Virus record (IMG/VR): IMGVR_UViG_3300030103_003543
Coordinates: 1-30,531 of that record
Source of the DNA: a virus
DNA: 30,531 bases
Reading direction: 5' to 3' (one strand)
The notes under the pieces were generated by a model. The model was not told where the DNA came from. It ran no database searches and worked only from the letters and a program-made list of their open reading frames with translations. The position numbers and the translations under genes are program-made. Below, one piece after another: positions 1 through 5,076 of the stretch (position 1 is its first letter; each line of letters starts with the position of its first letter).

Positions 1-185
1 CCTGTGATTGAGTAGTGAACTGATGCGTCATTGTTATACAACAGTGCACATAGTTCCCAGTACTTCTTACCGAACAATTGGGAATACGTGTAGTTGTATT
101 CATAGATGCAACCATCACGAACCGTGTTGTAGTTGGTGATGTTGAAACTAGTTGGGCGACCGAAAAGCATTGGTGAAGCAGTCAT
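1..185 (-). CDS. Small hypothetical early protein, 3' end outside window
   Basis: An open frame starts at ATG 185 and runs off the left edge with 61 codons visible and no stop. The protein begins MTASPMLFGRPTSF and is rich in Tyr and Asn; I do not recognise it. No Shine-Dalgarno is visible. The start is preceded by CATCATC, the same context as the 47-residue ORF upstream. A single copy of the repeated half-site lies 27 bases upstream (212-222). The position after a genome-end-like region and in a series of small ORFs suggests an early gene. Length and function cannot be judged from this fragment. Confidence 0.5.
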   Translation of the reverse strand, partial: MTASPMLFGRPTSFNITNYNTVRDGCIYEYNYTYSQLFGKKYWELCALLYNNDASVHYSIT

Positions 186-211
186 GATGATGTTGCGAGT
201 GGATGTGTTCT

Positions 212-222
212 GTTAGTGGAAT
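212..222 (-). repeat. Single half-site of the early-ORF repeat
   Basis: The plus strand reads GTTAGTGGAAT (ATTCCACTAAC on the coding strand). It is identical to the half-site at 383-393 and close to the others at 771-798 and 1001-1028. It sits 3 bases after the stop of the 47-residue ORF and upstream of the ORF starting at 185. The second half-site seen in the other copies is absent here. Confidence 0.6.
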
Positions 223-225
223 GGT

Positions 226-369
226 TCAGGCTGGATAGATGCGGTAATCGTTCTCTGTCCAGGTCTGCATGTAGATGCTGAACAATTCCACAGCGTCATC
301 CCAGCTCATCGCATTTGGATAGGTGAGATCACGCCATGCGTCGTTGAACAGGATTTGAACTGTGTACAT
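226..369 (-). CDS. Small hypothetical early protein (47 aa)
   Basis: ATG at 369, TGA at 228-226. The product begins MYTVQILFNDAWRDLTYPN and ends NDYRIYPA; it is acidic and aromatic-rich, with no membrane segment. I do not recognise the family. There is no Shine-Dalgarno; the start context CATCATCATG is the same as that of the next ORF at 185. Repeat half-sites lie on both sides (383-421 upstream, 212-222 downstream). Codon choice and amino-acid composition look protein-like, and the ORF fills the space between repeats exactly, which supports it despite its size. Confidence 0.55.
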   Translation of the reverse strand: MYTVQILFNDAWRDLTYPNAMSWDDAVELFSIYMQTWTENDYRIYPA

Positions 370-382
370 GATGATGAGTGCC

Positions 383-421
383 GTTAGTGGAATGGTAGCA
401 GCAAAGTGTCGTTAGTGCAAC
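383..421 (-). repeat. Early-ORF repeat element, two half-sites
   Basis: Two 11-bp half-sites in direct orientation: GTTAGTGGAAT at 383-393 and GTTAGTGCAAC at 411-421 (plus strand), separated by 17 bases, a period of 28. The other two-site elements (771-798, 1001-1028) have a 6-base spacer, a period of 17. The element lies between the stop of the 110-residue ORF (424) and the start of the 47-residue ORF (369). It could be a promoter or operator; the function is not shown. Confidence 0.65.
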
Positions 422-423
422 GG

Positions 424-756
424 TCAGGCACTGAGAACGTGCCACTCGTCAATTGTCATGTCATTGGATGCCTTGGCGGCAGCGTTGAACACGTACCAAG
501 TGAAGTCCTTTTGATACACACGGTCACCCTCAAAGCCAAACTCACAAAGAATGGCATTCAGTCGTGACTTGGTGGTCTTGGTGCGGTAGCCGCAATGACG
601 TACAGCTACGTATTGATCTGCAACCTGTGCAATTTCGTGCCCGTGCAGATAGATGTGTGAAATGCTCTGATCATCAGTAATAACTGATGTATTTGCTTTG
701 GACCAGTTGGAGTTTGAGTTGATCGCTGAGATCATCTCGGATTCGATCTTACGCAT
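424..756 (-). CDS. Conserved cyanophage early-type hypothetical protein (110 aa)
   Basis: The frame is open from 849, but I place the start at ATG 756 (MRKIESEMISAINSNSNW), because the upstream part covers the repeat element at 771-798 and the MRxIE start fits remembered relatives. Features are an NxNW segment, a central IYLHGHEIAQV strand and TTKSRLNAILCEFG followed by VYQKDFTWYVFN. From memory, proteins with this TTKSRLNA...FGxxGxxVYQK pattern are widespread small proteins of unknown function in marine cyanophages, often in the early region. No catalytic motif is visible. This is the main evidence that the left end of the window is early-region DNA. No clear Shine-Dalgarno is seen. Confidence 0.75.
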   Translation of the reverse strand: MRKIESEMISAINSNSNWSKANTSVITDDQSISHIYLHGHEIAQVADQYVAVRHCGYRTKTTKSRLNAILCEFGFEGDRVYQKDFTWYVFNAAAKASNDMTIDEWHVLSA

Positions 757-770
757 GTTTGAAATGAACG

Positions 771-798
771 CTAGGTGGAATAGTACTGTTAGTGCAAC
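771..798 (-). repeat. Early-ORF repeat element, two half-sites
   Basis: The 28-bp element contains CTAGGTGGAAT, a 6-base spacer AGTACT and GTTAGTGCAAC (plus strand). By hand it matches the element at 1001-1028 at 22 of 28 positions, and all but one difference are transitions. Its left edge is 14 bases upstream of ATG 756. The coding strand can also form a 6-bp hairpin (ACTGTT, GCACT loop, AACAGT), but the pairing is not kept in all copies. Confidence 0.7.
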
Positions 799-859
799 AG
801 TATGTGAAAGGCCAAAGGATGGCCAGACTGATGACAGGTCATGAACCATCGCAGCCTGG

Positions 860-997
860 TTAGCTGATCATCAGTGCCACCAACTTCACGCGCCCTCCGG
901 TGATCTGGGCGAGGCTTCTAACTTTGACGGGCTCAGAAGCGGGACCACTTGTATGAAGCCAGGCATGTCGTGCTTGGCCGTTTGTTGTGCTTATCAT
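860..997 (-). CDS. Possible small early protein (45 aa)
   Basis: ATG 997 to TAA 862-860. The product begins MISTTNGQARHAWLHTSG and ends GGRVKLVALMIS; it is basic with no recognised motif. The support is positional: it starts 3 bases downstream of the repeat element 1001-1028, as the other small ORFs follow their repeats. A GGG just before the ATG is too close to be a normal Shine-Dalgarno. A 26-residue ORF starting at the internal ATGCCTGG in another frame is an alternative. Low confidence that it is translated. Confidence 0.35.
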   Translation of the reverse strand: MISTTNGQARHAWLHTSGPASEPVKVRSLAQITGGRVKLVALMIS

Positions 998-1000
998 GCC

Positions 1001-1028
1001 CTAAGCGGAACAGTACTGCAAGCGCAAC
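1001..1028 (-). repeat. Early-ORF repeat element, first copy
   Basis: Half-sites CTAAGCGGAAC and GCAAGCGCAAC (plus strand) flank the same AGTACT spacer as the copy at 771-798. It ends 3 bases before ATG 997. This is the most upstream copy in the early direction and the most diverged one. Confidence 0.65.
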
Positions 1029-1046
1029 ATACACAGTGAAGCATGA

Positions 1047-1085
1047 CAATTGATACTAAACAATGACAATGAATCAATTGATACT
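1047..1085 (-). repeat. Direct repeat of an 11-mer, operator or promoter candidate
   Basis: CAATTGATACT occurs at 1047-1057 and 1075-1085 on the plus strand (AGTATCAATTG on the coding strand), 28 bases apart. The region between is AT-rich with repeated CAATGACAAT-like words. It lies in the non-coding stretch 998-1258, just upstream of the first early repeat element. Spaced identical sites suggest a protein-binding site. I see no convincing -35/-10 pair here. Confidence 0.5.
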
Positions 1086-1144
1086 GATGTCGCCACAGAT
1101 CGCGAGAGATGGAGAGACGAAACAGGCGCCCGCGCGGTAGTAGA

Positions 1145-1158
1145 AACACGCGCGTGTT
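1145..1158. other. Perfect 14-bp palindrome in the non-coding stretch 998-1258
   Basis: AACACGCGCGTGTT is a perfect palindrome, set in a GC-rich patch (1120-1165) unlike the AT-rich flanks. In the 261-base stretch 998-1258 I otherwise find only the 11-mer direct repeat, the hairpin at 1203-1238 and the promoter-like site at 1248-1275. It might be a binding site or part of the terminal repeat; nothing more can be said. Confidence 0.45.
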
Positions 1159-1202
1159 ACCTGTAAACCCAGTGTGCACGGCTAGTCTGTAGATCTAGAG
1201 CG

Positions 1203-1238
1203 TTAAAAAGAGGGGCCATGGGGGTGATTCTGCGGCCC
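1203..1238 (-). terminator. Terminator-like hairpin with U-tract
   Basis: On the minus strand GGGCC (1238-1234) pairs with GGCCC (1217-1213) around a 16-base loop, followed by CTCTTTTT (1212-1205). It is 20 bases beyond the stop of the last ORF after terL, so it could end late transcription. It also lies just downstream of the promoter-like site 1248-1275, so it could instead act as an attenuator. The stem is short and the loop long, so strength is uncertain. Confidence 0.5.
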
Positions 1239-1247
1239 TGCTGGTAC

Positions 1248-1275
1248 GTTATATGGCTTCAGAGATTTTTGTCAA
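1248..1275 (-). promoter_or_regulatory. Sigma70-type promoter candidate
   Basis: On the minus strand TTGACA (1275-1270) is followed after 16 bases by TATAAC (1253-1248). That is a perfect -35 and a 5/6 match to the -10. It points into the early small-ORF region and overlaps the last codons of the preceding ORF. A start near 1240 would place the hairpin 1203-1238 in the first transcribed bases. This would suit a host-polymerase early promoter near the genome end. Confidence 0.5.
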
Positions 1276-1456
1276 AATTTAAGAGGTACTTTGACTCTGA
1301 TTCGTACGGTTTCTCACTGACAAAAACCTTAAAATCATCAATATAAGGCGGAACCCAGTCCCACACTGCTACACATGACGACCAGTTAACAGGTTGAACG
1401 CAAGAAACAATAACAACAGAGTAAAAAGCAGTGACATAGTTATAGAGGGTTAACAC
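1259..1456 (-). CDS. Possible small protein after the 99-aa ORF (65 aa)
   Basis: GTG at 1456, two bases after the stop of the 99-residue ORF; TGA at 1261-1259. The product has a hydrophobic N-terminal third (LTLYNYVTAFYSVVIVSC) and an acidic C-terminal part (PPYIDDFKVFVSEKPYESES), so it could be a membrane-anchored peptide. No Shine-Dalgarno is visible. The frame is open further upstream to 1564, but that part overlaps the 99-residue ORF. An overlapping 22-residue ORF (1437-1369) in another frame is strongly hydrophobic and is an alternative product. No family recognised. Confidence 0.35.
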   Translation of the reverse strand: MLTLYNYVTAFYSVVIVSCVQPVNWSSCVAVWDWVPPYIDDFKVFVSEKPYESESKYLLNFDKNL

Positions 1457-1457
1457 A

Positions 1458-1757
1458 TTACGTGACCATTTTTGTATTATCGTTTGGTTCTGGGACATCA
1501 AAGAACGTATCTTCTTTGAATTCATCAGGAAGACCATACCCTCTGTGTTGTTCATCCATATCAAGACACCATTGCTTCAGTGCTTTACCTGTATCTGTAA
1601 ATTTAGCTACCCCTAAAATACGCCAAGCTTCTAAAGGGTCTAAACGGTATGTCGCTGCATTCTTGTAGTAACACATAAATCCATTAGGACCTTCTCTAGT
1701 TTTATGATATTCAATTTTGAAGTCTTTATCATTATGGGGGAAAGATATTCTTTTCAT
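1458..1757 (-). CDS. Hypothetical protein downstream of terL (99 aa)
   Basis: I take ATG 1757 (MKRISFPHNDKDFKIEYH) rather than the upstream TTG at 1784. The product has a central segment AWRILGVAKFTDTGKAL followed by KQWCLDMDEQHRGYGLP and an acidic tail. No domain is recognised. No Shine-Dalgarno is present, and the upstream sequence is very AT-rich. It lies where T7 has gene 19.5, between the large terminase gene and the genome end, but I see no sequence reason to equate the two. The protein-like composition and length make it more likely real than not. Confidence 0.55.
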   Translation of the reverse strand: MKRISFPHNDKDFKIEYHKTREGPNGFMCYYKNAATYRLDPLEAWRILGVAKFTDTGKALKQWCLDMDEQHRGYGLPDEFKEDTFFDVPEPNDNTKMVT

Positions 1758-4746: not shown

Positions 4747-5076
4747 TTAATTAATATGCGATAAAATGAGTTCTTCTCGAAGAGGATTTAATCCAAAGCG
4801 TTCTCTCATCCAAGAACGCCAATGTGTACTTCCTTTGTCCTGATTACATGAGGTACAAGCGCATACCAGATTGCTGGTAATATCCTCACCGCCATAGGTG
4901 CGAGGATGAACGTGATCCAAAGTAAGTTCGTGTAATTCATAGGTTGCTCCGCAATAAACACATGTACAGCCAAAATGTTCTTTGATGCTGCGCCTCCAAA
5001 GACGCTTTGCTTCAGAGGATGTCATGGTTATTAGGTTGTTAAGGTAATGATCAGGAGTTGGAAGTAAGGGGGTCAT
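4747..5076 (-). CDS. HNH endonuclease next to terminase (109 aa)
   Basis: The start at ATG 5076 overlaps the upstream stop (ATGA). The HNH core is clear: CVYCG at 39-43, LTLDHVHPRTYGG at 51-63 with D54, H55 and H57, SNLVCACTSCN with N69, and a second CxxC at 74-77. Two CxxC pairs suggest a structural zinc. HNH proteins beside terminase genes take part in cutting during packaging in several tailed phages. A free-standing homing endonuclease is the alternative. Translational coupling and the place in the packaging cluster favour the packaging role, which is inference. Confidence 0.88.
   Translation of the reverse strand: MTPLLPTPDHYLNNLITMTSSEAKRLWRRSIKEHFGCTCVYCGATYELHELTLDHVHPRTYGGEDITSNLVCACTSCNQDKGSTHWRSWMRERFGLNPLREELILSHIN

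Follow-up and report, generated by a model that had tools for sequence, protein, structure and literature searches.

Three groups of phages carry repeats that resemble, in arrangement, those described here. Cluster K mycobacteriophages have asymmetric repeats (SAS and ESAS) just upstream of the starts of small nonstructural genes of different families; of the two, the start-associated sequence SAS is one 13-bp block (GGGATAGGAGCCC) and ESAS an inverted repeat of 17 bp (PMC3203893; PMC12699233). In Microbacterium phages of Cluster EC, 18-bp asymmetric repeats in one orientation occupy small intergenic gaps 21–30 bp before gene starts, each a single block upstream of the ribosome-binding site, with 12 copies across the genome (PMC7302621). 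The stoperators of Cluster A mycobacteriophages are single asymmetric 13-bp sites, oriented with transcription, with copies at the early promoter and others distributed over the genome; the protein that binds them is known, a monomeric immunity repressor that stops elongation (PMC9283540). Among SAS, EC repeats and stoperators, function has been proven for the stoperators only. In T7-like phages with both a MarR-like regulator and an integrase, MarR sites have been proposed to flank the promoter of the RNA polymerase (RNAP) gene (PMC10134795). For T7-like cyanophages, Shitrit et al. reported no known repressor homologues, and no lysogeny in S-TIP37 (PMC8776855).

The window analyzed here comprises bases 1–30,531 of a 43,821-base IMG/VR virus record (IMGVR_UViG_3300030103_003543). 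Its genes, which include psbA and those for the capsid, the tail and internal virion proteins, lie almost entirely on the minus strand, and its terminase is 85% identical to those of S-RIP2 and of the uncultured phage S28-C3; the remainder of the record encodes DNA replication proteins, RNAP, an integrase, a MarR-like regulator and small early proteins. On these genes we assign the record to an uncultured T7-like marine cyanophage. Comparison with contig L065 indicates that it was probably cut within the early region, with ~0.7 kb absent between its ends, and we therefore place window positions 1–1030, in minus-strand sense, at the start of the early region, directly past the terminase end, as in named relatives. 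A run of Ns at contig 30532–30541, right past the window end, identifies the record as a scaffold interrupted at that point. From 1800 to 1867 the window has short tandem repeats, first 9-mers of the CACTCACTT type and then CGTT tetramers, which separate the terminase gene from the ORF next to it.

The array consists of five copies, all on the minus (coding) strand, of a 28-bp unit made of two direct 11-bp half-sites (ACYRTTSCRCT) offset by 17 bp. Like SAS, the units are asymmetric repeats just before several gene starts, (nearly) all in one orientation. Unlike SAS, which puts GGGATAGGAGCCC in the place of the ribosome-binding site, they are 17-bp-offset direct repeats with no Shine-Dalgarno match, and one copy lies on a promoter-like sequence; no sequence relation was seen between the two. 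With the Cluster EC repeats they share asymmetry, a common orientation and a place in small intergenic gaps, but they are bipartite, restricted to the early region, 0–18 nt from the ATG and without a ribosome-binding site. As with stoperators, the units are oriented with transcription; they differ in being two-part sites and in that the regulators are candidates only. The promoter at the upstream-most unit (W1) is weak by consensus, with a register that recurs in relatives. The gene order resembles that of LUZ100-type T7-like phages, in which a MarR-like gene likewise immediately precedes the integrase and both a tRNA-Leu sequence and the RNAP gene are close by, but the 28-bp unit is absent from the place around the RNAP promoter where MarR sites are proposed in those phages (PMC10134795). 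Because the arrangement is known elsewhere, neither the sequence nor the 17-base direct repeat is matched in SAS, EC repeats or stoperators, and no report of such repeats in cyanophages was found in the searchable literature (which leaves out most subscription journals), we regard the array as a variant, not previously reported in cyanophages in the literature searched, on the known arrangement of start-associated or stoperator-type repeats.

The repeat unit and its distribution

A preliminary description of this DNA reported four short minus-strand ORFs, each headed by a motif of one or two 11-bp half-sites. The ATG starts at 997, 756, 369 and 185 were confirmed, as were the sites, with exact matches to GTTAGTGSAAY at 212–222, 383–393, 411–421 and 788–798 and looser copies at 771–781, 1001–1011 and 1018–1028. 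W1 (1028–1001) and W2 (798–771) do match at 22 of 28 positions, and five of the six differences are transitions. What had to be revised is the spacing, given as a period of 17 or 28 bases and attributed to two separate sites. Seventeen base pairs proved to be the fixed offset of the half-sites within one bipartite unit, which replaces the separate sites, and 28 bp is the unit length, repeated where W3a and W3b abut. The site at 212–222, described as single, is real and has a weaker second half at 195–205.

Across 15 sites in five contigs, the summed partner score at offset 17 is 104, compared with 30–64 (about 47) at other offsets, and offset 17 is among the best partner positions at 13 of these sites. 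An alignment of 18 sites shows ACYRTTSCRCT repeated, the conserved A and C of the spacer being the ACY of the second half. Within the window the stop-to-start gaps are nearly filled by units (Table 1): W3a and W4 start within stop codons, and W3b reaches the ATG. Four of the five precede three ORFs, all on the minus strand, at unit-to-ATG distances of 0, 13 and 18 nt. The W3a plus W3b double arrangement is also found in L076 (3566/3594).

Table 1. Features at the start of the early region (window coordinates; ranks and scores are from the relatives-only matrix)
Feature	Position	Strand	Remarks
Weak sigma70-like promoter, TTGCAG-N17-CATGAT	993..1021	-	7/12 consensus matches; unflagged by promoter scanner
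W1 (GTATGTTGCGCTTGCAGTACTGTTCCGC)	1005..1032	-	rank 4, score 20.8
W1 half-sites	1018-1028 and 1001-1011	-	upstream-most copy; overlaps weak sigma70-like promoter
Noncoding early leader between W1 and W2	803..992	-	no conserved frame in L073, L068, L082
W2 (TACTGTTGCACTAACAGTACTATTCCAC)	775..802	-	upstream of ORF starting at 756; rank 1, score 30.7
Early gene, 110 aa, Kyano_Gp96 family	424..756	-	PF23790, E=1.7e-34
W3a (GACCGTTGCACTAACGACACTTTGCTGC)	398..425	-	rank 2, score 27.3; starts on the central base of the preceding ORF's TGA stop
W3b (TACCATTCCACTAACGGCACTCATCATC)	370..397	-	rank 5, score 18.1; abuts W3a; ends at ATG 369; second half weak
Early gene, 47 aa, no known family	226..369	-	homologues in L076, L065, L078
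W4 (AACCATTCCACTAACAGAACACATCCAC)	199..226	-	upstream of ORF starting at 185; rank 3, score 22.2; starts on the final base of the preceding TGA stop
Early gene, at least 61 aa, truncated by contig end	1..185	-	homologues in L076, L065, L068

The strict half-site GTTAGTGSAAY occurs four times in sense orientation in window 1–1460 (0.003 expected), and four sense and no antisense copies are present in the whole contig. A looser pattern, RTTSCRCTWRS, has nine sense and no antisense matches in 43.8 kb, six of the nine within the array. Because the half-site pattern derives from the window's own sites, we also scanned the whole record, on both strands, with an out-of-sample matrix of 28 positions built from ten units of L076, L073, L068 and L082. 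The window's units took ranks 1–5 in the 43.8-kb contig; the best score among 40 random (shuffled-control) sequences was 16.8, and the next real match reached 13.2. A matrix made from the window only recovered five units in L076 (33.3–17.6) and two in L073 (23.9 and 23.7), all on the coding strand. With it, L068 and the known L082 site score at background, so the full unit appears confined to a small lineage comprising the window, L076 and L073. A looser relative of W1 is present in L068, in L082 and in L082's allies, and the GTTGC-N12-GTTYCRCT arrangement of W1 is found at the same place in L068, L073, L082, L083 and L086, followed by leaders that differ.

Within the record, units occur in the early region only, with none in structural genes or in middle or late intergenic regions, and six cultured cyanopodoviruses have no copies. 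A host origin of the motif was rejected after 84,980 bacterial and archaeal genomes gave no match. The exact dyads that a search of all viral contigs found in four more contigs (L158, L159, L161 and L162) stand in different contexts and number about what chance predicts, and were taken as chance.

The preliminary description had named further early-region copies in relatives as a test of its idea of a shared element. Such copies exist in L076 and L073, in the same orientation and spacing and sometimes before different genes, and the idea survived: a common cis element before successive early genes stands, which may be a promoter, an operator or a translation signal. Conservation is higher in the half-sites than around them; the leader of the 185 gene keeps TTCCACTAAC at 10 of 10 positions between the window and L076, with a spacer and a downstream part that have diverged. 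It should be noted that sites within one genome may partly share ancestry via duplication, so that their number overstates independent support, and conservation across genomes is the stronger argument. The evidence consists of sequence alone, that of an incomplete record and of the short contigs of two close relatives (L076 and L073).

The promoter-like sequence, the leader and the early genes

Half-site 2 of W1 sits in the spacer of the weak sigma70-like promoter, between the −35-like and −10-like hexamers, and a comparable register is seen in L073 (TTGCAC-17-CATGAT) and L082 (TTGTGG-17-TATGCT). ORF 997, which the preliminary description counted among the ORFs headed by the motif, was rejected as a gene: its ATG lies within the −10-like hexamer CATGAT, and its frame is lost in L073, L068 and L082 (14 aa, 29 aa and an immediate stop, respectively). 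We read the region instead as a conserved noncoding leader. One block of this leader (827–895, minus strand, 69 bases) is identical in L073 and nearly so in L076, with a predicted branched stem, and may be a structured early leader RNA, three sequences being too few as proof of the structure. The folding energy of the whole leader is no better than that of shuffled sequence. An exact search with the core of the block found it in no other viral contig, and it is absent from cultured phages. A different conserved block, common to L068 and L078, lies at the same place.

The claim that ORFs are headed by the motif holds for those starting at 756, 369 and 185, which we accept as credible genes. The Gp96-family ORF has a relative in 405 phage records and is common in T4-like cyanophages. 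Homologues of ORFs 369 and 185 were found only in a few metagenomic contigs and not in cultured phages; the 47-aa proteins share 55–70% identity within their family. The gene behind the same leader is a Gp96-family gene in the window, a DUF7178-type gene in L076 and a homologue of the latter in L073. This change of gene shows cassette exchange in the region, and the modular-cassette idea of the preliminary description fits the same unit standing before different genes in relatives.

Possible functions of the units

Our preferred reading, to which we give a probability of roughly 40%, is that the repeats are directional, bipartite protein-binding DNA sites, operator- or stoperator-like, on the early transcription unit. 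W1 would sit on a presumed early promoter for the host RNA polymerase, with the remaining units filling the short gaps before each following early gene. A phage-encoded regulator would bind the units, the candidates being the MarR-like protein, of winged-helix type, and a small early-region protein that resembles ribbon-helix-helix regulators. The bound regulator would damp initiation at W1 and, at the internal copies, elongation or local initiation, acting on passing or locally starting polymerase. The outcome would be early expression that is tuned or shut off, comparable to the action of operators and stoperators in Cluster A mycobacteriophages.

W1 and the internal units have the half-sites in common but not the −35 and −10 hexamers. 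Because the internal units keep the half-sites and lose the hexamers, the half-sites probably bind a factor other than sigma70, most likely a regulatory protein. The standout offset of 17, the relatives-only ranks, the single orientation, the early-only location, the W1 arrangement kept in L068, L073, L082, L083 and L086, and the unchanged TTCCACTAAC all argue for protein-binding sites. Against them counts that direct repeats 17 bp apart fall on different helix faces; that start codons follow W2, W3b and W4 after 0–18 nt and stop codons contain the beginnings of W3a and W4, positions that suit an RNA function too; that words shared by early and RNAP leaders in other MarR/integrase phages are no more than suggestive; and the findings of Shitrit et al. 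on repressor homologues and S-TIP37 lysogeny (PMC8776855).

The strongest rival is an RNA-level start or intercistronic element, in which G-poor, unstructured leaders recruit ribosomes or an RNA-binding protein and so replace the Shine-Dalgarno sequence. G makes up 9.2% of the three gene leaders in the window (9.4% of the L076 leaders) compared with 22% of the genome. The leaders have no Shine-Dalgarno match, as first described, and those of the window have weak predicted folding on average, W3, W4 and three of the four L076 leaders folding no better than shuffles. The near filling of stop-to-start gaps is also as expected of such an element, and the start-associated sequences of Cluster K are found at this position too (PMC3203893). 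However, W1 precedes no credible gene and overlaps promoter-like sequence, the unit-to-ATG distance varies, short hairpins occur in W2 and in the first site of L076, and the early leaders of S-TIP37 also lack a Shine-Dalgarno sequence yet have neither such repeats nor low G. We consider this explanation somewhat unlikely. A hairpin as the shared RNA feature was rejected because W3, W4 and the other sites have none. Known RNA families gave no match at gathering score, and the one sub-threshold match, to an animal miRNA family, is meaningless.

Promoter arrays and recombination linkers fit less well. We think it unlikely that each unit is a promoter, whether a weak one used by the host polymerase or one for the phage's single-subunit RNAP, even though the half-site's CACTAAC resembles the CACTAAAGG core of T7-family promoters and TCCACTAA precedes the RNAP gene of three phages (the present one, P-SSP7 and S-CBP1). 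Starts by a phage polymerase are required in the middle and late intergenic regions, and as these contain no copies, the phage-RNAP promoter was dropped as a leading idea. Host sigma70 promoters would require −35 and −10 hexamers 16–18 bp apart at every copy. W1 is in register with the sigma70-like promoter (7/12) and W2 overlaps TTCACA-17-TACTAT (9/12), but the other units have no recognizable −10, W3b and W4 having no such match, and the six sigma70-like sites found in the region are not clearly enriched over shuffles (3.8 ± 1.7). That the units are recombination linkers, i.e., short shared sequences for early cassette exchange with no regulatory role, is very unlikely despite the different genes behind the same leader, given that conservation is greater in the half-sites than around them, that their spacing is exact and constant, and that short recombination homology needs no 17-bp bipartite unit.

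If the units are protein-binding sites, a more specific version would be a stoperator-like repressor circuit in integrase-carrying T7-like cyanophages, with one regulator acting at W1 and at roadblocks before every early gene. We regard this as improbable; if true, it would supply an integrated-state regulator of the kind reported absent in these phages. The array bears on two questions, early-gene control in T7-like cyanophages and the coupling of integrase and repressor, and the bipartite site, fixed in form, directional and repeated over the early unit, offers a concrete target for distinguishing a regulator from promoters or a nonstandard translation signal.

Candidate regulators and the integration region

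The MarR-like regulator (contig 42072–42428; phrog_9665, E=2.2e-32) is encoded next to the integrase and the tRNA-Leu attP fragment. It is a candidate because control by such regulators has been proposed for T7-like phages that have temperate features (PMC10134795). Its link to the unit is weak, since the leaders of the MarR-like and RNAP genes have loose half-sites and, in the relatives-only matrix scan, no full 28-bp unit. The tRNA-Leu gene piece (43 bases; L008 10340–10382, contig 40871–40913; 100% identical to S-TIP37) lies between the integrase and RNAP genes and is likely the attP site. Past it are a 15-bp palindrome, CTAAGTTTCACTTAG, and a hairpin that resembles a terminator. An 80-aa early protein (L008 11975–12217, contig 42506–42748) is ribbon-helix-helix-like, its ParD match (E=0.12) being weak and below the cut-off.

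We also compared early leaders with RNAP leaders in six MarR/integrase phages. The leading shared words are TTCCACTAA in this phage, ACCTGTGC in S-TIP37 and TATCCAC in P-SSP7, and random pieces did no worse in 10%, 6% and 1% of the trials, respectively; sharing is at chance in the other three, and across the six phages it is only suggestive. In S-TIP37 (L156), ACCTGTGCC has three copies, all sense, at 427 and 567 in the early leader and at 5041 before the RNAP gene. The copies at 567 and 5041 belong to the palindrome CTGTGC-N6-GCACAG, and ACCTGTGCC is possibly the operator of that phage's MarR-like regulator. The early regions of the cyanopodoviruses L007, L147, L150 and L082 have strongly repeated words of their own (e.g., TCAAGGACG and ACAAGGACGC), part of them lying within hairpins upstream of early genes, for example GCGTCATCAAGGACGC.
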